Shown here piece after piece: positions 3,449-21,042 of a stretch of 21,042 bases of DNA. Made by a program: the position numbers and the translations under genes. Where the stretch lies: the IMG/VR virus record IMGVR_UViG_3300007960_000256, positions 1 through 21,042 of that record, one strand, 5' to 3'. Positions within the stretch are counted from its first letter, which is position 1, and each line of letters opens with the position of its first letter. Origin of the DNA: a virus. The notes under the pieces are model-generated. The model did not search any database and had not been told where the DNA came from. It was given only the letters and a program-made list of their open reading frames with translations.

Positions 3449-3462
3449 TGCTTTTACTTTTC

Positions 3463-3497
3463 AAGAAAAGGGGGAAGCAGCCGAAGCCACCTCCCCC
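3463..3497 (-). terminator. Rho-independent terminator after the capsid gene (T-phi position)
   Basis: On the minus strand a 12-base stem (3470-3481 with 3486-3497, three G-U pairs, no unpaired base) is closed by a TTCG tetraloop at 3482-3485 and followed by TTTTCTT at 3463-3469. It lies between the capsid and tail tubular A genes, the same place as the T-phi terminator of T7. Termination efficiency cannot be judged from sequence; T7 T-phi is leaky and allows tail gene expression. Confidence 0.85.
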
Positions 3498-3500
3498 AAA

Positions 3501-3514
3501 CACACACACACACA
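3501..3514. repeat. Dinucleotide repeat (CA)7 on plus, (TG)7 in the transcript
   Basis: Seven perfect CA units on the plus strand lie between the post-capsid hairpin and the TTCG terminator. In the minus-strand transcript they form a UG spacer. It is the opposite orientation to the CA-rich leaders of the early genes. It could be a slippage-prone spacer without function. Confidence 0.9.
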
Positions 3515-3538
3515 GCAAGGAGGATAAACCTCCCGCTG
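3513..3538 (-). other. Second hairpin directly after the capsid stop codon
   Basis: On the minus strand GGAGG (3529-3533) pairs with CCTCC (3519-3523) around a TTTAT loop. An outer CAGC/GCTG stem (3535-3538 with 3513-3516) is separated by a small internal loop. It begins one base after the capsid TAA and has no T-tract, so it is not itself a terminator. It may protect the capsid mRNA 3' end or be an RNase III site; both are inference. Confidence 0.55.
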
Positions 3539-3539
3539 G

Positions 3540-4553
3540 TTAGACAGCCAGCTTGAAGTAGCCAGCCGCGTCCTGGCGCAGGGGAGCAGTACCCAGAGCC
3601 ATCTTAGCGACGAACAGAGTACCCTGACGCTCAACCATGTAATCGCTTTCCAGAGCAATGTCCTTCAGCTTCACGGTGGCGACAGCCTCTTCGTGACCAA
3701 ACACACCGGCGTAGAGGGAATAATCCACGCTAGCTTGGTTCTGGTTACCCGCAGCGACAGTGTAGTTCACACCAACATCATCGACATGGTTCGACTTGTA
3801 GACCTTGATGCCAGCCACTTCCATGACCTTACCAGTGGCGACAGAGCCGCTACCGCTGTAGTCAAGGTTGATGGCGTTGCCAAGGGTTCCAGCCTTCTGA
3901 ATCAGGCGGTAGTACAGTTCAGGGCCAACGACCGCAAAGCGCCCCTCTTCGGGGAGGTCGTTCGCGTCCATCTTCTCAGCCGCCTCAAAGAAAGCACCAA
4001 TCATGCCAGCACTGGTCACATCGGCCTTGGTGGCAGCACCGAGGTCCACATTGCCCATACCAGAAAGAATCGGGTCGGAGGCGCTGCCGCCAGCCGACTG
4101 ATACATGGCGCGGATGATGTTCTTATCAAGCTCGTAGGACAGAGCGCGACCAAGCTCTTGCGAGAAGGGGCCACGGTAGTCGTAGTGCGACTTGGCCTCG
4201 TCCAGGGAGTCGATAAAGCACGAAGCCGTGAGCAGGTCGTCAATCTTGACGAGCTTCTCGTTGGTCTTCATCGTGCTGAGGTAATCAGTAGTGCCAGCGT
4301 CCTTGTCAAGAATCAGGGACTCACCAGGAGTGTGATACTTGGCAACAGCCTTGCCAGTGATGGGGAACTGTGCCGAACGACCCGAGGAGATAGTGCGGAC
4401 ACGGGTAAGCGGGAGCATGACATTCGCTTCAGCGAAGGCGGTAGACACTTCGCCAGCAAACACCTTGAGGAACATGGCGTTGTCGGTAGCCCAAGTTCCA
4501 GTATGAGCGCCGGAACCGCTAGCCTGACCGCCAAGAGAGACTTTCATAGCCAT
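3540..4553 (-). CDS. Major capsid protein (T7 gp10-like)
   Basis: A 337-residue HK97-fold capsid protein close in size to T7 gp10A (345 residues). Family patterns are plain: FAGEVSTAFAEANVMLPLTR near residue 32, then SGRSAQFPITGKAVAKYHTPGE, and near the C-terminus GVFGHEEAVATVKLKD. The start is ATG at 4553; a second in-frame ATG lies two codons later. An AGGA about eight bases upstream serves as ribosome binding site. It is preceded by the longest untranslated leader of the late region (110 bases) and followed by two hairpins, consistent with separately boosted capsid expression. I see no slippery site that would clearly give a gp10B-like frameshift product. Confidence 0.97.
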   Translation of the reverse strand: MAMKVSLGGQASGSGAHTGTWATDNAMFLKVFAGEVSTAFAEANVMLPLTRVRTISSGRSAQFPITGKAVAKYHTPGESLILDKDAGTTDYLSTMKTNEKLVKIDDLLTASCFIDSLDEAKSHYDYRGPFSQELGRALSYELDKNIIRAMYQSAGGSASDPILSGMGNVDLGAATKADVTSAGMIGAFFEAAEKMDANDLPEEGRFAVVGPELYYRLIQKAGTLGNAINLDYSGSGSVATGKVMEVAGIKVYKSNHVDDVGVNYTVAAGNQNQASVDYSLYAGVFGHEEAVATVKLKDIALESDYMVERQGTLFVAKMALGTAPLRQDAAGYFKLAV

Positions 4554-5386: not shown

Positions 5387-6934
5387 TTATTCCTGTGGCG
5401 GTTGTTGGGGTGCGGCCATCATGCCCCTTACGCCCTCTTGGATGACTCCAGGAGCGGCGTTCTGAACCATCTGCATCATCTGAGCTTGCTGGGACTCAGC
5501 CATCACTTCATCTGGTTTACGGACCAGCCCTTCAGGGTTGATACCAAGAGAAGCAGCGCGGCGAGTCAGGTACTCTCCGATGTTGATGTAGTTCTGGACA
5601 GCTTCAGGCCCAAAGACTTGACCGATGCCAGCGATGAAGCCGTCAAGACGAGACAAGTCCATGCCCCGACCCATAGCGTCAACGCCAGTAATAATCATCG
5701 GCGTAATGTATTCCTTTGGCAGCTTCGGCAGCTTGCCCGTCTTGGACATCTGCTCAATCAAGCGGGTTACCAAAGGCAACTGGAGGGTAGTCGCCAGTTG
5801 CGAGTAGACCGAGGAGTGCTGACGCTCAATGCTTTGCTGCACCAAACGAACCTCCTCTGCGGTCACACGCTCCGCGTTGCGGATGGTGTCCGTGGTCAGG
5901 AGGAAGGCGTAGTTCAGCCGCTCCTGAATCTTGTTGACCGTCTCAAAGGCAATGCGGAAGTCCGCAAACTTACCTAGCTGAAGGACGGAGACATCACCTG
6001 CATTGCCCTCACGGATAGCCCCATTGGGAGCTTCCGCAATCGTCCGCGCACGGGTCGTACCGTTGGGGGACACCAGGAACAGGCAACGAGCAGCAGCGGC
6101 TGACCCCTCGACCAGCGCCTTTTGCAGCGCCTCCATCGACATCAGGTCGCCGTAGTATTCCTCCACCAGGGAGCGGCCATAGTCCTGCCCATCAACGATG
6201 TGCATACGCAGGGCCATGAAGGGGGACTTCTCCATCGGGTACTCGCCCTCGGAGCCAGGGATAACCTCCCCGTAAATCTCCTGATGGATGTAGTAAGTAC
6301 GGTCCTCCAGGTACGCACAGGTGTACAGGTCGCAGGAAGTCTCGTTCTTGTCACCCTTCACCTGAAGGATTTCAGCGGCACTTTCAGGCAACGCAGAGTG
6401 AGCGATTTCCTCCTTCGTGATGACCTTCAGGACATTGCCGGAAGGGTCACGCTTGACTGCGTAGTTGTTCAGGTTAAACATCCGCAAGCTGTTATCCTCA
6501 CGGAGGAACAGCAAGCAGTTACCCGCGACAATCAAGTGCTTGAGAGCCTCTGCCAGGGATGGGCGGAAGTTAGAGATTTCTACTTCCTTCATCACCGCCC
6601 GTTCCATACGGGCTAGGCTGGAATCAATCTCCGACTTGACATCGTCAAGACCATCCAGGTCTTTCAGAGCCGCCTCATCCAAGGCGAGACGAAAGAACGG
6701 CTGGTCTTGGGGAGGCAAGAGCGCCAGCAGCAGAGCCGCAGAGAGGTTGTTTACACCCCTTGCACCGATGCTGTTATACGGCGTGTCAATCCGAGACGAA
6801 GCGTTAAACCCCTCGTCTACGAACAGAGAGGGGATAGTCAGACGGGCGCAATCCCTAGCGCGTTGGAGGTAGGGAAGGCGGCTCGCTGACAGCTTCTCGT
6901 ACTGAGACGCAACCGTTCCGTGGGTGTATTCCAA
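5387..6934 (-). CDS. Portal / head-tail connector protein (T7 gp8-like), TTG start
   Basis: A 515-residue portal protein, close to T7 gp8 (536 residues), which forms the dodecameric ring for DNA packaging and tail attachment. Diagnostic parts are YNSIGARGVNNLSAALLLALLPP near residue 53 and the long C-terminal helical region ERVTAEEVRLVQQSIERQHS typical of the family, ending in a Gln/Pro/Met-rich tail. The start is TTG at 6932-6934, two bases after the stop of the preceding gene. No ATG or GTG lies upstream in frame before a stop, and none follows in the conserved N-terminal part, so TTG is the only reasonable start. A TTAGG sequence about eight bases upstream may bind ribosomes. Confidence 0.95.
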   Translation of the reverse strand: MEYTHGTVASQYEKLSASRLPYLQRARDCARLTIPSLFVDEGFNASSRIDTPYNSIGARGVNNLSAALLLALLPPQDQPFFRLALDEAALKDLDGLDDVKSEIDSSLARMERAVMKEVEISNFRPSLAEALKHLIVAGNCLLFLREDNSLRMFNLNNYAVKRDPSGNVLKVITKEEIAHSALPESAAEILQVKGDKNETSCDLYTCAYLEDRTYYIHQEIYGEVIPGSEGEYPMEKSPFMALRMHIVDGQDYGRSLVEEYYGDLMSMEALQKALVEGSAAAARCLFLVSPNGTTRARTIAEAPNGAIREGNAGDVSVLQLGKFADFRIAFETVNKIQERLNYAFLLTTDTIRNAERVTAEEVRLVQQSIERQHSSVYSQLATTLQLPLVTRLIEQMSKTGKLPKLPKEYITPMIITGVDAMGRGMDLSRLDGFIAGIGQVFGPEAVQNYINIGEYLTRRAASLGINPEGLVRKPDEVMAESQQAQMMQMVQNAAPGVIQEGVRGMMAAPQQPPQE

Positions 6935-10223: not shown

Positions 10224-11640
10224 CGGGCTGTTTGGGGCTGACGATGGAGAAGCGCATCTTCTTCTTGTCGAACACCAGCGTTTCCATCGGGCCAGTGTCG
10301 CCAGAGAATCGGTTCTTCAGGCAACGGCAAAGGACATGGTTAGGGTTCTCCTCATCCTGCTGGTCACGCTCCAGGCCAATGCACATATCGGCAAGGCCAG
10401 CGATTTGAGTCGAGCCACGGAGCAGAGACAGAGAGGTCTGACCACCTTCCTCCATCGGTCTACCTTCGGTGCGCTTGAGGTGACTGACAACAACCAGACC
10501 GATGTTCAGGTTCTCCACCGTCTGCCGCAGCTTGGTCATCACCGCGTCAATCCGCCGGCGCTCGTCGCCTTGGTCAGCACCGCCTGACAGCATCAGGGTC
10601 AGGTGGTCAAGGAAGACATACTTGTACCCAGCGTGAGCCAGGAACTGAATCTTCTTCATCAGGTTATCGGGGTCGATGGAACCGAAGTGGTCGTAGAGGA
10701 CGATGTGTTCCGTGCCGAACACTTCCTCAAACGCCTTGTCACGCTCGTCTTCCGAGATGTCGTAGTTCAAGTGCAGGGCTTTCCCCGTGTGGATACCGAG
10801 GAACTGAAGCGCAGACTGGCGGACATTCTCTTCCAAGGCGATGTAGGCCACCTTGGTTTGTCGGCTCAGGTGGTAAGCAATCTCACGGCATACCGTGGAC
10901 TTGCCGATACCAGTTCCCGCCGTGACAACGACCAGTTCCCCACGGCGTAAGCCATAGGTCTTCTGGTTCCATCCAGGCCAGGGGTAATCGTAAGCCTCCA
11001 CCTCGGTCATGTCCGTCACGGCAGCGTAGATTTCATCCTTAAACGCTAGGCCATCAGGGCGGTGGGGCTTGGCCGACCACATACAAGACACAAGCTCCTG
11101 CACCTTGTTGGCTTGGAGCATCTCGTTGATGTCCTTGAAACCTTCAGGTAGCTGGGCGATGTGCGCCTTGCCTGGACTGAGCAGTGCCGCGCACTCAACC
11201 GCAGCTTCCTGCCCTGGCTTGTCCATGTCGAACATGAACACAACCTTTTCAAAGCTCTCGACAAACTCAATGTTGTCGCGGATGCTTTTGGAAGCCGACT
11301 GTGCGCCGTTCGGTACGCCGACAACGGGCCACTTCAGGCTTTGGACCTGACCCATAGAGCAGGTATCAACCTCCCCTTCGCAGATAACAAGCTGCTTGCC
11401 GCCAGACCACAGGTGCTGACCAAACAGTTGCATCCGCCGTGCGTCGCCGACAATGCGGAAGTTCTTCTCAGAGTCACGGAGCTTCTGCGCCACGACCCGT
11501 CCATCTTTATCTCGGTAGCTGGCAACTTGGTACTTGCCGCTAATCCCGTAGCCAAACTTACGGCAGGTATCCTCCCGCAGTTTGCGCTTAGGGATGTCAC
11601 CGTACTCAACATTAAGGAATCGTTGAGTCAGCGTTTCCAT
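10198..11640 (-). CDS. Internal in-frame helicase-only product (T7 gp4B-like)
   Basis: An ATG at Met62 of the primase/helicase, starting METLTQRFLN, is preceded on the minus strand by AAAGGAGG with four bases between AGGAGG (11645-11650) and ATG. This is a far better ribosome site than the one for the full protein. The product, 480 residues, would lack the zinc domain (C25-C46). T7 makes exactly such a short form, gp4B, from Met64. The short form should be an active helicase lacking template-directed primase activity, and would mix with the long form in hexamers. The start is predicted from sequence only. Confidence 0.85.
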   Translation of the reverse strand: METLTQRFLNVEYGDIPKRKLREDTCRKFGYGISGKYQVASYRDKDGRVVAQKLRDSEKNFRIVGDARRMQLFGQHLWSGGKQLVICEGEVDTCSMGQVQSLKWPVVGVPNGAQSASKSIRDNIEFVESFEKVVFMFDMDKPGQEAAVECAALLSPGKAHIAQLPEGFKDINEMLQANKVQELVSCMWSAKPHRPDGLAFKDEIYAAVTDMTEVEAYDYPWPGWNQKTYGLRRGELVVVTAGTGIGKSTVCREIAYHLSRQTKVAYIALEENVRQSALQFLGIHTGKALHLNYDISEDERDKAFEEVFGTEHIVLYDHFGSIDPDNLMKKIQFLAHAGYKYVFLDHLTLMLSGGADQGDERRRIDAVMTKLRQTVENLNIGLVVVSHLKRTEGRPMEEGGQTSLSLLRGSTQIAGLADMCIGLERDQQDEENPNHVLCRCLKNRFSGDTGPMETLVFDKKKMRFSIVSPKQPDEPKHFDF

Positions 11641-11823
11641 GTTTCCTCCTTTGCTAAGTGTTTCATGTGTCTGTGTATGTGAACGACAGCTAAAGCAGTA
11701 TTCGTGGTCAGAGTAGATAGCTCTAGCATCACTGCTGCCGCACTCGTCGCACGGGCCGTGCCTTAGGAATCGACTATCCGTAGCTTCATCTCGATGAAAC
11801 CCTCTTGGCCCGTCTCCGCCCAT
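10198..11823 (-). CDS. Primase/helicase (T7 gp4-like)
   Basis: A 541-residue bifunctional replication protein. The N-terminal zinc-binding domain has C25, C28, C43 and C46. The TOPRIM primase part includes QLVICEGEVDTCS and FMFDMDKPGQEA. The DnaB-type helicase part has Walker A VVTAGTGIGKSTVCRE with K308 (T7 K318), Walker B YVFLDHLTLML, and SHLKRTEGRP. It ends in PDEPKHFDF; a terminal Phe behind acidic residues is what T7 gp4 uses to bind its polymerase. The ATG at 11823 overlaps the upstream nuclease gene by 61 bases but is preceded by AAGGGAG seven bases away, and no later start precedes the zinc domain. Confidence 0.97.
   Translation of the reverse strand: MGGDGPRGFHRDEATDSRFLRHGPCDECGSSDARAIYSDHEYCFSCRSHTQTHETLSKGGNMETLTQRFLNVEYGDIPKRKLREDTCRKFGYGISGKYQVASYRDKDGRVVAQKLRDSEKNFRIVGDARRMQLFGQHLWSGGKQLVICEGEVDTCSMGQVQSLKWPVVGVPNGAQSASKSIRDNIEFVESFEKVVFMFDMDKPGQEAAVECAALLSPGKAHIAQLPEGFKDINEMLQANKVQELVSCMWSAKPHRPDGLAFKDEIYAAVTDMTEVEAYDYPWPGWNQKTYGLRRGELVVVTAGTGIGKSTVCREIAYHLSRQTKVAYIALEENVRQSALQFLGIHTGKALHLNYDISEDERDKAFEEVFGTEHIVLYDHFGSIDPDNLMKKIQFLAHAGYKYVFLDHLTLMLSGGADQGDERRRIDAVMTKLRQTVENLNIGLVVVSHLKRTEGRPMEEGGQTSLSLLRGSTQIAGLADMCIGLERDQQDEENPNHVLCRCLKNRFSGDTGPMETLVFDKKKMRFSIVSPKQPDEPKHFDF
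11641..11653 (-). promoter_or_regulatory. Strong ribosome binding site for the gp4B-like start
   Basis: The minus strand reads GCAAAGGAGGAAAC directly before ATG 11638-11640. AGGAGG occupies 11645-11650. It is one of only two full AGGAGG sites I noticed in front of a start codon in this window, the other being at the integrase. Confidence 0.85.
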
Positions 11824-12173: not shown

Positions 12174-12811
12174 TAAAAGTCAGCGCCGCTATCGGTCGCT
12201 GGGCTGTCGCTGGAGTCCTCCACTCCAGGAAAGCCATCACCCTCTACATCGAACAGCTTATTGGCCAACTCGTCGGAGTTAGTCACATAAGTCTTGTGGT
12301 CGATGAGTTGAACAATCTTGATACGCAGCGTCAGGCCGAAGCCAATCGGTGCGTTCCAAGTGTACGGCTCAAAGGCAATGCGGATGACGCTGCCGCCACC
12401 GACACTTTCCATCGGGACTTCCATCGGCTGACGGCTTGCGTTCAGCCAAGCGATGCGGTTCTCCCAGGTCTTGCCAGTGCGACGGTTCTCGCCAGTCGCC
12501 TTCAGTTTGAACTTGAAGGCCGTCTCGCCAGTCGCCTCACCAGTATCGGGGTCTTCAAGGTCAACCCAAGGGAACTCGCTGTATTGCTTCAGCTTCTTCC
12601 CCTCTTCCTGGCAAGCGGTGTTGTACGCCTCCTGGTAAACCTTAGTCAACTGTGCCTTGAACGCCTCGCTGTCGGCCTTGTTCAGGACAAGCTGGCACTT
12701 GTACTCAGGAGCCGAGTTGTACTTCTCAGCAAAATCGTAGTCAGGCTGGGTCAGCCACGGATAGCGAGCAACCCCTTTGGGACTCGCCAGTACTTGCGGT
12801 TTGTTTGTCAT
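12173..12811 (-). CDS. Single-stranded DNA-binding protein (T7 gp2.5-like)
   Basis: A 212-residue protein between RNA polymerase and resolvase, matching T7 gp2.5 in position and nearly in length (232). The N-terminus shows PKGVARYPWLTQPDYDF and YKCQLVLNK, a pattern common to gp2.5-type OB-fold proteins, followed by WENRIAWLNASRQPM and RIAFEPYTWNAPIGFGLTLRI near 150-175. The last 25 residues are acidic and end in ADF, like the T7 gp2.5 tail whose terminal Phe contacts polymerase and helicase. Eleven bases separate it from the polymerase stop, with only a weak AGAAGAAA site. It protects single strands and helps annealing during replication and recombination. Confidence 0.9.
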   Translation of the reverse strand: MTNKPQVLASPKGVARYPWLTQPDYDFAEKYNSAPEYKCQLVLNKADSEAFKAQLTKVYQEAYNTACQEEGKKLKQYSEFPWVDLEDPDTGEATGETAFKFKLKATGENRRTGKTWENRIAWLNASRQPMEVPMESVGGGSVIRIAFEPYTWNAPIGFGLTLRIKIVQLIDHKTYVTNSDELANKLFDVEGDGFPGVEDSSDSPATDSGADF

Positions 12812-16244: not shown

Positions 16245-16256
16245 TTTCCTCCTAAG
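16245..16256 (-). promoter_or_regulatory. Ribosome binding site of the integrase
   Basis: The minus strand reads CTTAGGAGGAAA directly before the GTG start. AGGAGG is at 16248-16253, only three bases from the start, which is tight. The perfect match suggests well-translated integrase, and it supports GTG over any downstream start. Confidence 0.75.
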
Positions 16257-16270
16257 TGTGAGTGTGTTAG

Positions 16271-16994: not shown

Positions 16995-17353
16995 CTTTCG
17001 TCAGACTGAAGGCAGGTCAGGGAAGCCAGAAGAAAAGCAGCCATCTCTTTCTTGGTGAACGGAGGAGAGACGGCGATGCCCTCACGGAACAGAACAAGTT
17101 TGCTGTTCACCCATGACAACTCATAGGTGCGCTCGGTCAGGTCGCCTAGTTGGGCTGCCGCCTCCTCAAGGTTGCTCTTGGTGGGCCGTGTAAACAAGGG
17201 GTAATGGTTCATGTTTTTGAAGTTGGGTGGTAGTTTCGGGCGTCGGTTGCAGTGATAGCAACGCACCTCCATCAAGGTTTCTTCGTCGCGGAGTTCGGTT
17301 GCAATCCCAGTGTCGCCACAGGTTTGACAATCGACGCCGTAGAAAGTTTTCAT
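16991..17353 (-). CDS. Zinc-ribbon hypothetical protein
   Basis: A 120-residue protein with an N-terminal Cys4 site: C9 and C12 (CQTCGDTG), C32 and C35 (CYHC). The CxxCGxxG form with a later CxxC recalls DnaJ-type or nucleic-acid-binding ribbons. The C-terminal half (TKSNLEEAAAQLGDLTERTYELSWVN and so on) is a helical and beta mix of unknown type. Its ATG overlaps the stop of the DUF3846 gene by four bases (ATGA), and its stop overlaps the next gene in the same way. The family is not recognised. Confidence 0.78.
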   Translation of the reverse strand: MKTFYGVDCQTCGDTGIATELRDEETLMEVRCYHCNRRPKLPPNFKNMNHYPLFTRPTKSNLEEAAAQLGDLTERTYELSWVNSKLVLFREGIAVSPPFTKKEMAAFLLASLTCLQSDER

Positions 17354-17658
17354 TGGACGGTACTAGCTGGCACGACGGCAATGTTACCGACAACAGGAAA
17401 GCCGCACAAGGTTGAAGCTGCCAAGTTCAGGGGCAACCGTTTCTGAAGCCCCTCTTCGTTGCCAAGCACGACAGTCCCAGGCAGTTCGCTGACAGGGGTA
17501 AGGATTTCGATGTAGCCACCCACAGCTTCTTGCAGTTGCTGGAGGCTGTAGGTTCCATCGTCATTGGCTGGCTCAGGCATCTCGACTTGGTTGCCAGAGG
17601 AGGTCAACAGGTAGCCCTGTGTAAACGCAGCGTTGTCAGTGGTGGTGATTTCGGTCAT
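17350..17658 (-). CDS. DUF3846 domain protein
   Basis: A 102-residue protein with the DUF3846 layout: LQQLQEAVGGYIEIL near residue 43, then VVLGNEEGLQKRLPLNLAAS and VVGNIAVVP at the end. DUF3846 proteins are frequent in phages and plasmids, often near anti-restriction genes, with no proven activity. I start it at ATG 17656-17658 (MTEITTTDNAAF) rather than further upstream, because the upstream extension lies inside the 32-codon membrane protein gene and reads as a cysteine/serine-rich shadow. The leader is CA-rich without a Shine-Dalgarno. It is coupled to the next gene by ATGA. Confidence 0.8.
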   Translation of the reverse strand: MTEITTTDNAAFTQGYLLTSSGNQVEMPEPANDDGTYSLQQLQEAVGGYIEILTPVSELPGTVVLGNEEGLQKRLPLNLAASTLCGFPVVGNIAVVPASTVQ

Positions 17659-17671
17659 CTTTGGTTGGTGG

Positions 17672-17770
17672 TTAGGTGGAAGGAAAGAGGATGAGGATAG
17701 CCAGCAGCAGCACAGCGGTGGCGGCGCAGCACAATCCATCCTTGAGGTCAGAGGTGGTGGGTTTCTTCAT
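17672..17770 (-). CDS. Very small membrane protein (32 residues)
   Basis: Reading from ATG 17768-17770 gives MKKPTTSDLKDGLCCAATAV followed by LLLAILILFPST and TAA. The first 11 residues are polar and basic, and residues 13-29 form one strongly hydrophobic helix. The start overlaps the stop of the 44-residue membrane protein by four bases (ATGA), and the next gene starts 13 bases after its stop. Short coupled membrane proteins in phages can be holin-like, superinfection-related or toxin-like; the sequence does not decide. It is real mainly because of the coupling and the clear helix. Confidence 0.65.
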   Translation of the reverse strand: MKKPTTSDLKDGLCCAATAVLLLAILILFPST

Positions 17771-17901
17771 GGTTGGCGATTGTAGTAGAGCATGAAGCCC
17801 CAGCCAGCGAGCATGATTGTGATGCCGACATAGTTGAAGCAGTAGATGCTGAACTGGAAGGCTTGTCGGGTAGTGTTAGGGGTGAGCCAGCGCCAAGTCA
17901 T
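17767..17901 (-). CDS. Small membrane protein (44 residues)
   Basis: From ATG 17899-17901 the frame reads MTWRWLTPNTTRQAFQFSIY and then a hydrophobic segment CFNYVGITIMLAGWGFMLYY, with the tail NRQP. One transmembrane helix spans about residues 17-40. The upstream part of the same open frame (residues rich in Arg, Thr and His) falls in the 81-residue gene and the CA-rich gap, so it is not used. AGAAGAAGA before the ATG is a weak ribosome site. It ends in an ATGA overlap with a second small membrane protein gene, so the two are probably made in equal amounts. Function unknown. Confidence 0.7.
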   Translation of the reverse strand: MTWRWLTPNTTRQAFQFSIYCFNYVGITIMLAGWGFMLYYNRQP

Positions 17902-17945
17902 TCTTCTTCTGGTTCTGTCTGTGTGGTGGTGTGTGGTGGTGGTGG
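17902..17945 (-). promoter_or_regulatory. CA-rich leader, no strong Shine-Dalgarno
   Basis: The transcript strand is made almost entirely of ACC and CAC repeats followed by AGAAGAAGA before the start codon. It is likely unstructured. It belongs to the group of CA-rich gaps in the early region. Confidence 0.6.
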
Positions 17946-18191
17946 TTAGAATCGCTCGTGGACTTCGGTGACCCAGTGGTTCCAGCCGTCTTCGAAGGCG
18001 GCGAGGAGGTCGCCGCGGCCATCCCTGGCTAGGGGGGCGGCGTACCACGGGGAGAAGTTCGGGGTCAGGCGCGCCTGGGTCAGTTCCTCGGTCGCGGCCA
18101 TGAGGCCGTCTACCTCGTCGAGGTTGCCCTCGTATTCAGCGGCGGACTGCACGCCGATTTCAAATGCGTCAGCGGTGGTGATGGTGGTCAT
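17946..18191 (-). CDS. Hypothetical acidic early protein (81 residues)
   Basis: Starts at ATG 18189-18191 with MTTITTADAFEIGVQSAAEY, continues with NLDEVDGLMAATEELTQARL and ends FEDGWNHWVTEVHERF. The open frame extends 80 codons further upstream, but that part overlaps the 292-residue gene antisense in composition (Ser/Pro/Ala runs) and the CA-rich gap, so it is a shadow. The Thr-rich N-terminus resembles that of the DUF3846 and 292-residue proteins, probably because the CA-rich leader continues into the first codons. The family is not recognised. Tryptophan and acidic residues at the C-terminus may form a binding surface. Confidence 0.72.
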   Translation of the reverse strand: MTTITTADAFEIGVQSAAEYEGNLDEVDGLMAATEELTQARLTPNFSPWYAAPLARDGRGDLLAAFEDGWNHWVTEVHERF

Positions 18192-18222
18192 GTTTCTGAG
18201 GTGGTGGTGGTGGCGGTGTGGG
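18192..18222 (-). promoter_or_regulatory. CA-rich leader, no Shine-Dalgarno
   Basis: On the transcript strand the gap reads CCCACACCGCCACCACCACC and then TCAGAAAC before the ATG. No purine-rich anti-16S match is present. The ACC pattern continues into the coding sequence (ATGACCACCATCACC). Confidence 0.65.
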
Positions 18223-19101
18223 TTAGGAGCGGAGCTTGCGCAGGTCGGCGCGGGAGGGGAGTTCGGCGAGGCGCTCGGCGTTGACGCGGAAGCCGGCGAA
18301 GTACTGACGGACCCAGGTCTCGTAGCGCTTGATGATGGGCAGCGCCTTCTCCAGCAGGTTGAGGTTGGCGTCGCGGAGGTCGACGCCGAAGTCGTAATCA
18401 ATCGTCCTGTCAATCGCCCTCTCATCGTCACCGAATTGAATGGTGTCCTGGGAGCAGCGAAGGTAGCAGGTGCTGCGGCGCCAGACGAAGTCGATACCAG
18501 TGCTGTCCTTTAGCTCGCGGTCCATGCGCTGGCCGAGGCGGGTGACGGCTTTCTGCATCTTGATGCCCTCACGCTCCAGCCGGTAACGCTCGGTCTTGCG
18601 GAAGGCCTCGTCGACCTCGGCGGACTTACGCTTCGCGGCCTGCTTCTCGGTGAACTTTACTTGGGCCTGGATAAGGGCCTTCGTCAGGCGCTTGATGAAG
18701 CTCGCGTACTTCTTCTCATCCGAGGAGTCGCGGCAGTGGAACTTCTTCCAGGCGCCGTCGAGCCAGACCTCGGCTTTGAGAGAGGGCGTCCCCCAAGCGA
18801 TGACCGGCATGTAGAAGGCCTCCCTGCCGTCGAGGGTGAAAGTGAACCGCGTGGAGACGCCACACCAGTTGTTCGGGATGTCAAGCCGAGTCTTGGTGAT
18901 TTCCAGGTCGAAGGGCAGGAAGGAAGGCTCGGTGACGCTGAACTCCTGAAGGGAGGAGAAGAACTGACTGAGGTTGTTGAGGATGCCAGTCTGGTTAATC
19001 TCATGCAGCTGGTTAAAGCGCTCGATGGAGTCGCCGTGCCAGTCCTTCGCTTCGGGGTTGAACTTCAGGTCGGCGGCGGTCAGGGTGGTGGTGTCGTTCA
19101 T
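18223..19101 (-). CDS. Unrecognised 292-residue early protein
   Basis: The largest gene of the accessory early block. I start it at ATG 19099-19101 (MNDTTTLTAADLKFNPEAKD), because the upstream open frame lies in the previous gene and the CA-rich gap. The first half is mixed alpha/beta (FDLEITKTRLDIP, FTFTLDGREAFYMPVIAWG). Residues about 140-195 are highly charged and probably coiled coil (FTEKQAAKRKSAEVDEAFRK and RYRLEREGIKMQKAV). The C-terminal part has DFVWRRSTCYLRCSQD and ends basic (SRADLRKLRS). No known catalytic motif, zinc site or membrane segment is seen. GC content is clearly higher than in the replication genes. The function is unknown; the charge pattern would suit nucleic acid or host protein binding. 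Confidence 0.78.
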   Translation of the reverse strand: MNDTTTLTAADLKFNPEAKDWHGDSIERFNQLHEINQTGILNNLSQFFSSLQEFSVTEPSFLPFDLEITKTRLDIPNNWCGVSTRFTFTLDGREAFYMPVIAWGTPSLKAEVWLDGAWKKFHCRDSSDEKKYASFIKRLTKALIQAQVKFTEKQAAKRKSAEVDEAFRKTERYRLEREGIKMQKAVTRLGQRMDRELKDSTGIDFVWRRSTCYLRCSQDTIQFGDDERAIDRTIDYDFGVDLRDANLNLLEKALPIIKRYETWVRQYFAGFRVNAERLAELPSRADLRKLRS

Positions 19102-19150
19102 GGTTGTGTGTAAACGGTGTGGGTTGTGGGTGGTGGTGGTTGTGGTGTGG
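19102..19150 (-). promoter_or_regulatory. CA-rich leader carrying a CGTTTACAC motif
   Basis: Made of ACC, CAC and CAACC units on the transcript strand, with CACCGTTTACACACAACC just before the ATG. No Shine-Dalgarno is present. The 23 bases at 19107-19129 are identical to 20033-20055. Confidence 0.65.
19107..19129. repeat. 23-base direct repeat, copy 1
   Basis: Identical to 20033-20055. On the plus strand it begins TGTGTAAACGGTGTGGG and ends in TTGTGG. Both copies sit within ten bases upstream of a start codon on the minus strand, which suggests a regulatory role rather than chance. Confidence 0.85.
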
Positions 19151-19339
19151 TTAGTTAAGCAGTTCGTAGAGGGCTGCTTCGATTTCTTCCCGATAGGCGC
19201 GTTGCTCGCCTTCGTCGGCATCATGCTCGGGGGCGCTGATTTCGTCGAAGATGGCGGGGCCGTCAAGCTTGACAAAGAGTGCTTCCAAATCCTCGATGGG
19301 ACTGGTCTCGATGCTTCGGGGCAGGTCAGGATGGGACAT
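19151..19339 (-). CDS. Small acidic hypothetical protein (62 residues)
   Basis: Sequence starts MSHPDLPRSIETSPIEDLEA and ends QRAYREEIEAALYELLN. About one third of residues are acidic and the whole is probably helical. Small, very acidic early phage proteins often bind host enzymes or mimic DNA, but nothing here identifies a target. The ATG is preceded by a CA-rich gap ending CACACGCACACC, without a Shine-Dalgarno. The family is not recognised. Confidence 0.65.
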   Translation of the reverse strand: MSHPDLPRSIETSPIEDLEALFVKLDGPAIFDEISAPEHDADEGEQRAYREEIEAALYELLN

Positions 19340-19381
19340 GGTGTGCGTGTGGTTGTGTGTGGTTGGGTTGTGTGTGGTTGG
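19340..19381 (-). promoter_or_regulatory. CA-rich leader, no Shine-Dalgarno
   Basis: Composed of CAACC and CACACAACC units on the transcript strand directly before the ATG. It shares this unit with the gaps at 19715-19756 and 20024-20110. Confidence 0.7.
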
Positions 19382-19714
19382 TTAGGAGGAGGAGAGCGCA
19401 GCCTGGACGGCCCTGAAGCCGCGCCAGTAGTCGGCGGAGTAGAGATGGTCGGCGTCCATGGTCGGCTCGCTGTGTCCGACTAGGGCATCGGCCATCCCAC
19501 GGATGCTCCAGCACTCCTCCACGAGGTTATCGCGGTTGAGGGAATCGGACAGAGCTTCAAGGGCTTCTGCGGCCTTGGTGGATGCTTCGTCGGGGGTGGT
19601 GGCGGCAGTCTCCTGCCCCGTCCGGCAGCTAGGGCGGTCGCAGAACAGTTCCCCGCGTCGGATGAAGGTATCTCTGCCACAGTTGCAGCAAGGGTCAAAG
19701 GTGGGTTCAGTCAT
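19382..19714 (-). CDS. Hypothetical protein with N-terminal zinc ribbon
   Basis: A 110-residue protein whose first 31 residues carry a compact Cys cluster: C9, C10, C12, C25 and C30 (PCCNCGRDTFIRRGELFCDR then PSC). Four of them could bind one zinc ion. The remainder is Ala/Glu/Ser-rich and helical (TPDEASTKAAEALEALSDSL), ending in YWRGFRAVQAALSSS. It starts at ATG 19712-19714 behind a CA-rich gap without a Shine-Dalgarno. The family is not recognised. A nucleic-acid or protein adaptor role would be in line with a single ribbon. Confidence 0.7.
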   Translation of the reverse strand: MTEPTFDPCCNCGRDTFIRRGELFCDRPSCRTGQETAATTPDEASTKAAEALEALSDSLNRDNLVEECWSIRGMADALVGHSEPTMDADHLYSADYWRGFRAVQAALSSS

Positions 19715-19756
19715 GGTTGGGTGTGTGGTTGTGTGTGGTTGGGTGTGGTTGGTAGG
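19715..19756 (-). promoter_or_regulatory. CA-rich leader, no Shine-Dalgarno
   Basis: On the transcript strand the gap is built from CCAACCACAC and CACACAACC units and ends CACCCAACC before the ATG. No anti-16S match occurs. Confidence 0.7.
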
Positions 19757-20023
19757 TTATTCCGGCCAGGAGATGAACGCCTTCCGGCCAGCCTGGACGA
19801 GGTTGCCCCCGAGGAAGCAGCTAACGATGACATAATCGTCGCCTGCCGCGCCCGTAACGGCCAGCCTGCGCCCGTCCTGCGTCCGCAGCGAGACCCCGTT
19901 TACCAGGGTCGCCTGGAACCGTTCCCCAGGGAGCGCGCCCCCGAGCGCAGGCGGCATCTGGACGAGGACTTCGCGGTCCGGCATTCCTGGAACCAAATCT
20001 TCAACGGTGCGATTGATGTTCAT
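19757..20023 (-). CDS. Hypothetical protein (88 residues)
   Basis: Starts MNINRTVEDLVPGMPDREVL and ends NLVQAGRKAFISWPE. The pattern looks like a small beta-rich domain (FQATLVNGVSLRTQDGRRLAV, then DDYVIVSCFLGG). No metal site, catalytic motif or membrane helix is visible. It is flanked on both sides by CA-rich gaps, and the leader carries two CGTTTACAC motifs. GC content is high, as in its neighbours. The family is not recognised. Confidence 0.65.
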   Translation of the reverse strand: MNINRTVEDLVPGMPDREVLVQMPPALGGALPGERFQATLVNGVSLRTQDGRRLAVTGAAGDDYVIVSCFLGGNLVQAGRKAFISWPE

Positions 20024-20032
20024 GGTTGGTGC

Positions 20033-20055
20033 TGTGTAAACGGTGTGGGTTGTGG
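20033..20055. repeat. 23-base direct repeat, copy 2
   Basis: Identical to 19107-19129, and likewise next to a start codon (ATG 20021-20023 on the minus strand). The two copies are about 930 bases apart. Confidence 0.85.
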
Positions 20056-20085
20056 TTGTGTGTGGTTGTGTGTGGTTGGGTGTGG

Positions 20086-20107
20086 GGGTTGGGTGCGTGT
20101 AAACGCT
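20086..20107. repeat. 22-base direct repeat with GTGTAAACGCT, copy 1
   Basis: Identical to 20491-20512. On the transcript strand it comes straight after the stop codon of the 111-residue gene. It shares the core GTGTAAACG (CGTTTACAC) with the 23-base repeat pair. Confidence 0.85.
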
Positions 20108-20110
20108 GCG

Positions 20111-20446
20111 CTAGTGAATCATGTCCTCCAGGCCAAGGCGCACAAACTCGGCGCGGAGACTGTCGTCGAATCCAGGGTCGATTTTCGGTAGCTCTCGGTC
20201 GCCCTCTTTGTAGTAGTCTTCCAGTCGGCGGAGGTATGCGGTCAGGTCGGCCTTGGATTCCGCTTGAAGCACGGTGCTGTCGCCCTCGACATAGGTCAGG
20301 ACGCGCAGCCGGAAGGGGTTGACCCATACGCCGTAATAGCTGGCATCCTGCGGCGTGTCAAGCTGCGCCCATTGGGTAGACGACAGACTGAAGTCGTAGG
20401 TGTATCGGCTGCCGTTGGTGGTGTGTTCGGTGTGGATGGTTTTCAT
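20111..20446 (-). CDS. Hypothetical protein (111 residues)
   Basis: Starts MKTIHTEHTTNGSRYTYDFS and contains YYGVWVNPFRLRVLTYVEGD, ESKADLTAYLRRLEDYYKEG and the acidic end RAEFVRLGLEDMIH. The order of a beta-rich first half, a TYxEGD motif and a helical AYLxxLEDYY part recalls small uncharacterised phage proteins I have seen in other tailed phages, but I cannot name the family. It starts at ATG 20444-20446, preceded by a CA-rich gap ending CAACACACCGCACC. No zinc site or membrane segment is visible. Confidence 0.7.
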   Translation of the reverse strand: MKTIHTEHTTNGSRYTYDFSLSSTQWAQLDTPQDASYYGVWVNPFRLRVLTYVEGDSTVLQAESKADLTAYLRRLEDYYKEGDRELPKIDPGFDDSLRAEFVRLGLEDMIH

Positions 20447-20510
20447 GGTGCGGTGTGTTGGGTTGGGTGCGTGTGTGTGGTGTGGGGGTTGGGTTGGGTG
20501 CGTGTAAACG
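20447..20510 (-). promoter_or_regulatory. CA-rich leader with CGTTTACAC after the SprT-like gene
   Basis: The transcript strand has CGTTTACACGCACCCAACCC right behind the stop codon of the protease gene, then CACACC and CAACCC units to the ATG. There is no Shine-Dalgarno. Confidence 0.65.
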
Positions 20511-20512
20511 CT
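20491..20512. repeat. 22-base direct repeat with GTGTAAACGCT, copy 2
   Basis: Identical to 20086-20107 and, like it, right behind a stop codon in transcript direction. Here its last two bases fall inside the TAG stop of the SprT-like gene. Confidence 0.85.
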
Positions 20513-21042
20513 ATGCCAGTTCCATGGGGGTGCAGCCGTCCAGGCCGCAGTCGCAGTTCAGCGTTACCGTATCGGCCCACTTGCGGCTGATGCGAGCGAC
20601 CGCGCCGCAAGACGGACACTCCAGTTTCAGCATCCGCGTCGTCTGCTTCTTCCGGCCTGACCTCGGGTCGAGCTTGGCGTGTGGGTAGTCGCCGAGAGTC
20701 TCCGCGAGTTTCTCTAGCTTGGCCTGTAGCTCAGGTCCGGCAACCGTAGCGGTCATCTTTCCCTCCAGGCCGAGGGCCACAGCGACCTTTCGGAAGGGGG
20801 CCTTGTGTCCGTGTTCGACGCCCACGGAACTGTGGATTAGCTCATGCGCCAGGACATCGAGAACTCGCGTCGGGTTGTCAAGCGTCGGCGATACGAAGAT
20901 GTGGCTCCGCTCTTTATCGTCGGAGCAAGCAGCCGACCAGCATTGACCGATGGCTTGATTCTTCCCACCTCGGCCCGACGGAAGACCGACGGAGACAAGT
21001 GGCTGTTTAAACTCCGGCCCTCCTGCCTCCAGGATGAGCGGC
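20511..21042 (-). CDS. SprT-like zinc metalloprotease, 5'-truncated by window edge
   Basis: The open frame runs in from the right edge and ends at TAG 20511-20513, leaving 176 visible residues. The GTG at 20823-20825 is internal and not the start. The core reads SHIFVSPTLDNPTRVLDVLA followed by HELIHSSVGVEHGHKAPF: an HExxH zinc site (20832-20846) with a third ligand candidate in the following VEHGH stretch. GLEGKMTATVAGPEL follows, and a C-terminal ribbon holds CPSCG and CDCG. This is the layout of SprT/Spartan-like phage proteins. Family members cleave DNA-bound proteins in some organisms; in phages the substrate is unknown. The complete gene must begin beyond the window. Confidence 0.88.
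   Translation of the reverse strand, partial: PLILEAGGPEFKQPLVSVGLPSGRGGKNQAIGQCWSAACSDDKERSHIFVSPTLDNPTRVLDVLAHELIHSSVGVEHGHKAPFRKVAVALGLEGKMTATVAGPELQAKLEKLAETLGDYPHAKLDPRSGRKKQTTRMLKLECPSCGAVARISRKWADTVTLNCDCGLDGCTPMELA

Follow-up and report, generated by a model that had tools for sequence, protein, structure and literature searches.

In Escherichia coli and Salmonella, translation of several genes (yifK, dppA, and gltI) is promoted by CA-rich, unstructured enhancers that lie beside the initiation region or within it. ACA motifs stimulate initiation, repeats of ACAA act without a Shine-Dalgarno (SD) sequence (PMC3879156), and CA repeats downstream of the start codon raise translation of both leadered and leaderless mRNA (PMC9031893); the CA repeats of Martin-Farmer and Janssen (1999) are cited in both of these papers. 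Two phage systems are also comparable. Cluster K mycobacteriophages have a repeated leader element of unproven function before many genes, named start-associated sequence (SAS) or extended SAS (ESAS), with an upstream inverted-repeat element sometimes present (PMC3203893). Type II hammerhead ribozymes of prophages, which are found between genes and have a pseudoknot between loop I and the 3′ tail, have been suggested to divide phage transcripts into mRNAs of single genes (PMC3088659). The DNA analyzed here is a 21,042-base virus record (IMG/VR IMGVR_UViG_3300007960_000256, the whole of which is called the window), transcribed on the minus strand, in which small early genes of a putative temperate T7-like phage are preceded by gaps made almost only of C and A on the transcript strand. 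We consider that these CA tracts are probably the 5′ leaders of early mRNAs and would serve as open, SD-independent landing strips for ribosomes.

Seven such leaders lie between positions 17902 and 20510 of the window, all on the minus strand, with a C+A content of 86–98% that agrees with the initial annotation of CA-rich gaps before small early genes. The leader of early gene 3 (MKTIHTEH..., 111 amino acids (aa), phrog_24512) at 20447..20510 (64 nucleotides (nt), C+A 0.89) begins with CGTTTACACGCACCC and has no anti-16S pairing. The others precede gene 4 (MNINRTVED..., 88 aa) at 20024..20110 (87 nt, C+A 0.86), gene 5 (MTEPTFDPC..., 110 aa) at 19715..19756 (42 nt, C+A 0.98), gene 6 (MSHPDLPRS..., 62 aa) at 19340..19381 (42 nt, C+A 0.98), gene 7 (MNDTTTLTAADLKF..., 292 aa) at 19102..19150 (49 nt, C+A 0.92), gene 8 (MTTITTADAF..., 81 aa) at 18192..18222 (31 nt, C+A 0.90), and gene 9 (MTWRWLTPN..., 44 aa) at 17902..17945 (44 nt, C+A 0.89). 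There is also a short leader of 13 nt (C+A 92%) at 17659..17671, minus strand, before gene 11 (MTEITTTDNAAF..., 102 aa, DUF3846). Beyond the window end, the overlapping contigs G001 and L006 contain the leaders of gene 1 (45 nt) and gene 2 (99 nt, 94% C+A); coordinates given for G001 refer to that contig, and a window position equals 22364 − G001. In every leader, C accounts for 43–58% and G for 0–11% of the bases, and U is nearly absent. Within G001, 271 of the 278 30-nt segments with at least 27 C/A are in gaps, which represent 7.5% of the sequence, and first-order simulated genomes contain on average 0.5 such segments, with a maximum of 7. Segments of opposite composition, rich in GT on the transcript strand, number 13 in G001, and 10 of them are in gaps. 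The CA segments stay within the gaps and end at start codons.

Every early gene with a gap of more than 10 nt has a CA gap, and the overlapping genes 10 and 12–14 have none, which is the pattern expected of a translation signal needed just at uncoupled starts and agrees with the proposal of a signal common to the early accessory module. The proposed continuation of the pattern into the first codons, giving Thr-rich starts, was found as well: Thr represents 30% of codons 2–8 of genes 1–11, versus 5.6% in the rest of the same proteins and 8.6% in codons 2–8 of other genes. This CA bias in codons 2–8 parallels the ability of the ACA/CA enhancers to work downstream of the start codon, and by both composition and folding (see below) the leaders have the CA- or ACA-rich unstructured initiation region typical of these enhancers. 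However, the enhancers are known from single host genes, mostly with an SD, whereas here a whole early module has SD-free C/A leaders. The difference from the SAS of cluster K phages, where a sequence around AGGAG is fixed, is that the element described here consists in composition and excludes an SD; a fixed sequence motif of the SAS type was rejected because there is no AGGAG in the leaders and the units differ among phages.

As assessed by pairing with the anti-16S sequence 5′-UCACCUCCUUA, none of the 11 early genes has a 4-mer SD, the best pairing being −1.0 kcal/mol and most values being above 0. All seven gaps in the window, most of which had been annotated as having no anti-16S match, are at −1.0 kcal/mol or weaker. 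The two full AGGAGG sites that had been set against them are present: one precedes the integrase gene (16248–16253), where the leader CTAACACACTCACACTTAGGAGGAAA (16245..16270, minus strand) starts CA-like before reaching AGGAGG, and the other precedes the internal gp4B start (about 11645–11650). However, a 4-mer SD is found in only 7/30 of the non-CA genes, versus 30% of random positions, and their mean anti-16S pairing is −2.4 kcal/mol, versus −3.3 kcal/mol for random coding positions. Since these 30 genes pair with the anti-16S sequence no better than random, the whole phage is SD-poor. The view that the leaders stand in place of SD sites is thus correct in that they are SD-free, but it overstates the contrast with the other genes, which have no SD excess, and the tracts should be read as SD-free, C/A-only leaders.

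The start regions of the early genes are also unstructured, as the initial annotation had suggested. The mean minimum free energy of folding from −40 to +40 is −5.2 kcal/mol for genes 1–11 and −14.7 kcal/mol for genes 12–41 (Mann-Whitney p 7.6e-5), and the early-gene interiors have a mean fold of −23.3 kcal/mol. A further concern was that transcripts might start inside the gaps, leaving the tracts out of the mRNA. Where this can be judged, the leaders are within the mRNA, because they lie between genes of one operon and the leader of gene 1 is downstream of a predicted hammerhead cleavage site.

Given the published enhancement by ACA/CA, the absence of structure, and the absence of an SD, a landing strip for ribosomes is the best explanation for these leaders. 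It is based on their position, composition, lack of SD and structure, recurrence, and coincidence with cassette boundaries, together with a modeled ribozyme fold. Each early gene lacking translational coupling to the gene beside it would have its own C/A leader of 31–99 nt, unable to self-pair, in which the 30S subunit would find an open strip running through the start codon into Thr, His, Asn, and Pro codons. Initiation would then occur without SD pairing, aided by the ACA/CA content as in the E. coli and Salmonella enhancers. Recruitment of ribosomes by the strips, any role of ribosomal protein S1, and cleavage by the ribozyme are the parts that we infer.

Several points weigh against this explanation. 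Because the other genes also have no SD above chance, the host may simply not need one, and the purpose of the CA composition could be a different one. The RNA that S1 prefers is usually said to be rich in U or A, and the leaders have hardly any U. The known ACA enhancers were mostly demonstrated alongside an SD. In LUZ100, BB8, and Limnohabitans phage YIMV22061, T7-like phages that also have an integrase but are less closely related, many early genes use ordinary purine-rich sites (AAGGAG). C-rich, G-poor leader RNA is also compatible with Rho loading. A search for a leader 16-mer followed by ATG in 84,980 genomes returned scattered single matches only and did not identify the host. C-M24-ATG sites are rare in bacteria (17 in 241 Verrucomicrobiota, 6 in 99 Bacteroidota, and 6 in 150 Pseudomonadota genomes), these rates not being directly comparable with the phage because G001 has no exact match owing to stray G/T, and the phage RNA polymerase is absent from the 388 Verrucomicrobiota genomes in which it was sought.

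If the leaders were Rho-loading (rut) sites between early genes, they would make the early operon polar or attenuate it in a timed manner. The length of rut sites is usually quoted as roughly 70–80 nt, which is reached by about three leaders, most of the others being shorter (31–49 nt). The three longest (64, 87, and 99 nt) contain 15–19 YC dinucleotides (Y, pyrimidine), and the C and G contents of every leader fit the C-rich, G-poor stretches by which rut sites are described (PMC9160355, PMC6797219). On the other hand, the leaders are nearly without U, the tract extends past the start codon into coding sequence, and an operon with a rut site before each uncoupled early gene would cut short its own transcription again and again, so that we regard a rut function as quite improbable.

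The landing-strip explanation gains a possible processing step from a predicted type II hammerhead ribozyme located before gene 1, outside the window, at G001/L019:763–841. This element, separated from gene 1 by 44 nt in which the CA leader is located, has the core CUGANGA/GAAA/NUH together with stems I, II, and III, as assessed by a structural finder purpose-written for this analysis, which produced 0 matches in reversed sequences and 0/3000 in shuffles of the hammerhead region. With the Rfam Hammerhead_II model, this copy did not reach E<1. The same model has two matches in contig L251 (1040–1099 and 1299–1359 (−)), each directly before a CA leader, and there is a structural match before a CA leader on the minus strand of L042 (~553–609). 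At least three phages, the window phage included, hence have a type II hammerhead before the first or several of their CA leaders, and a pairing of loop I UUGGC with 3′ tail GCCAA is visible, by eye only, in the window phage, L042, and L251. Conservation is mixed, since the homologous site in L035 pairs stem I with one compensatory change and keeps the pseudoknot, but one core base is broken (A13 to C) and stem III is weaker. The window-phage copy resembles the prophage hammerheads in its putative loop I/3′-tail pseudoknot, but it differs in being found at the first leader only, with the 3′ tail of the pseudoknot entering the CA leader; no such ribozyme was found at genes 2–9. Cleavage would generate an mRNA whose 5′ end consists of a hairpin and then the CA strip. 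Among phage contigs selected because they have hammerhead II cores, an open reading frame (ORF) starts within 150 nt downstream in 179/184 distinct structures (median 23 nt), and a CA leader follows in a minority only. As nearly all structures precede ORF starts and few precede CA leaders, the modeled type II hammerhead is best seen as a general phage device that here meets a CA leader.

Other structured RNAs were observed in these genomes. One 38.5-kb viral contig (L298:8402–11317) contains seven or more type II hammerhead cores, which for the most part immediately precede gene starts, and an antisense match at G001:24143, which has a lower score and lies inside coding sequence, was taken as chance. 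The ∼700 nt of non-coding sequence upstream of gene 1 (L019:150–840) show strong structure (z −3.9), have no match in Rfam at curated thresholds, and are mostly conserved in L035 (blastn segment, about 83%). In a sister clade, a repeated hairpin with a constant loop CCGATAAGATAACCAAGGCCC and compensatorily changing arms is found directly before CA-type leaders (L067:4240–4300 and 5395–5460, L398 about 4045–4110, and L395 minus strand near 10,318). No Rfam family matched this hairpin in L067, and, being placed where the hammerhead sits elsewhere, it might represent a regulatory RNA or a ribozyme of another kind.

Unstructured CA-rich RNA could also be a target for pairing. In the small RNA (sRNA) GcvB (R1) and its CA-rich targets (PMC3879156), an unpaired GU-rich tract faces many CA-rich ribosome binding sites, and a comparable tract is present in the window after the major capsid gene (3449..3539, minus strand). 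This gap contains a hairpin, an unpaired (UG)7 UUU tract (UGUGUGUGUGUGUGUUU), and an intrinsic-terminator hairpin with a U run. The TG run at 3501–3514 belongs to the sole (GT)5+ run on either strand of G001, and its unpaired probability is about 0.75–0.97. For duplexes of the GU tract with the leaders of genes 1–6 and 9, the calculated energy is −20.6 to −24.2 kcal/mol, compared with −12.4 (sd 3.5) kcal/mol for the background. The region hence shares with GcvB an unpaired GU-rich part complementary to several CA-rich starts, followed by a terminator. This is a resemblance of layout only, because GcvB acts as a free sRNA of the host together with Hfq, whereas the candidate here would be the 3′ untranslated region of a phage capsid mRNA. 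A sister phage with CA leaders, G654, has the same hairpin/GU/terminator layout with a different first hairpin (L400, about 12,640–12,745). An RNA-only switch can be imagined, in which the GU tract of the strongly transcribed late capsid mRNA, open between hairpins, would pair simultaneously with all CA strips and, from the onset of late transcription, silence early genes late in infection in a GcvB-like manner. However, GU and CA repeats pair with each other whatever their origin, and the tract of G654 pairs weakly with CA leaders (−7 to −15 against a background of −8.4, sd 2.7). Among the 30 phages with a readable capsid 3′ region, a count that leaves out the capsid regions of L041, L042, L251, and L069, the tract is present in the window phage and G654 and absent in 28. 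Since these two are sisters (capsid 83%), they represent one evolutionary case. Weighing these points, we find such a switch unlikely.

CA leaders recur in other phages. Scanning 2.9 million viral contigs for an 18-mer taken from one leader yielded L035 and L041/L042, and further scans yielded L251 and L069. L035, a close mosaic relative whose gene 1 is 45% identical and which has none of genes 2–9 in common, contains five CA leaders, including perfect tandem CACACGCAAC units. More divergent phages with CA leaders before early genes are L041/L042 (terL 51% and integrase 31% identical, GC 0.46), L251 (GC 0.43, terL 54%), and L069 (terL 59%, six CA leaders), and the sister clade L067/L395/L398 (terL 83% for L067) has CA..ACAACCCACAA leaders before early genes. 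The early genes differ among these relatives, and so do the repeat units (CAACCACA, ACACACAA, CACCAAACAC, and CAACCCACAA), with C/A composition remaining constant. The expectation that related phages would have such leaders therefore stood for the closer relatives, but failed for LUZ100, BB8, and YIMV22061, none of which has CA gaps before early genes. Most terL relatives also lack CA leaders, and a terL tree (93 rows) requires at least three changes of the trait, with L067, whose leaders are CA-like, counted as "no" by the strict cut-off. Since these distant integrase-bearing, T7-like phages have early genes without CA gaps, the trait belongs to particular lineages (or hosts) rather than to the whole group. 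The phage with the closest annotated integrase (34%) likewise has the integrase beside a single-subunit RNA polymerase and small early genes, but these genes have no CA leaders and several AGGAG-type sites. No close DNA relative was found in the phage collection, and a partial coverage of the literature contained no description of such leaders in phages. Another viral contig with some CA leaders has an abiF RNA match in Rfam (L252:7273–7308).

The borders of homology between relatives point to cassette exchange. Homology between L004 and the window phage begins exactly at the gene 8 stop codon/leader 9 start, which marks a cassette-swap border, and the foreign cassette carries its own CA leader. 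The leaders would accordingly be modular, early-gene cassettes being exchanged among relatives with the type of leader kept and its exact sequence not. One could argue instead that the tracts are recombination modules, i.e. similar low-complexity gene borders for cassette swapping with no role in expression. Swap breakpoints do lie at leaders in both L004 and L035, and the 21-mer CACAACCCACACCGTTTACAC of the gene 7 leader is common to the gene 4 leader and one leader of L004. However, no recombination is expected between the differing units of different phages, the tracts invariably stop where the start codon begins and skew the composition of the first codons, and the leaders are not hypervariable, with one substitution (leader 2) among five near-identical sequences, all of which makes a purely recombinational role distinctly improbable. 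An origin of the leaders as slippage junk was rejected in view of the same stability among near-identical contigs. A role at the level of DNA, in which the GT-rich template strand would form G-quadruplexes or bind a phage protein and thereby affect transcription or replication, appears less credible still and in our opinion is very improbable. The template strand of the leaders has G4Hunter scores of 0.64–1.20 and GGTTGGGTGTGGTTGG, which we take to resemble the thrombin aptamer, but the runs are mostly of two G, the ACACACAA units of relatives give few G runs on the other strand and no quadruplex is expected there, and the tie to start codons would be left unexplained.

Besides the CA units, the most enriched 8-mer is GTTTACAC/GTGTAAAC, with 14 occurrences in the genome versus 0.85 expected (window 20502–20509, 20097–20104, 20034–20041, 19108–19115, and 17619–17626, with others in G001). 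It often heads a CA leader, is absent from the L035 contig, and is possibly a repressor operator or stoperator-like site. The motif CGTTTACAC, which occurs twice in the gene 4 leader, was considered as a promoter, but by eye it is not a sigma-70 site. Because it is found inside coding sequence too and is missing before late genes, it is more likely an operator-like motif.

The leaders belong to a polycistronic block of small genes, with early genes 3–11 as ORFs at 17350..20446 on the minus strand; their proteins have only weak family matches. Early gene 2 (window 20511–21042; L019:1266–1853) encodes a relative of SprT-like metalloproteases, 51–56% identical to proteins of Arthrobacter and Microbacterium phages. 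Elsewhere, the window encodes T7-type tail, capsid, and portal proteins, DNA polymerase, primase/helicase, single-stranded DNA-binding protein, a single-subunit RNA polymerase, and a tyrosine integrase. Because the single-subunit RNA polymerase and T7-type helicase, capsid, tail, and portal proteins are all present together with an integrase, the predicted proteins indicate that this is a temperate, integrase-bearing T7-like phage (Autographiviridae). No tRNA or attP remnant was found when looked for. Near-identical overlapping contigs (L002 in G001, L006, L009, and others) extend the sequence beyond the window to ∼36.3 kb, with an 82-base overlap that suggests a circular map. A tandem 11-mer GCCCTGGTCCT at L006:2824–2878 coincides with the start and end point of the 36.3-kb contig and may mark either a break in the assembly or an end of the genome.

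If the landing-strip explanation is true, an entire group of temperate T7-like phages, all uncultured, has an SD-free start signal that is coded by composition and moves with gene cassettes. The matching GU tract in the capsid mRNA would, if its proposed pairing is true, add a new way of timing phage genes. Such leaders would be compact and portable for expression work, and would provide a metagenome marker for small early (host-takeover) genes as well as a system for testing directly if unstructured CA RNA suffices for initiation.

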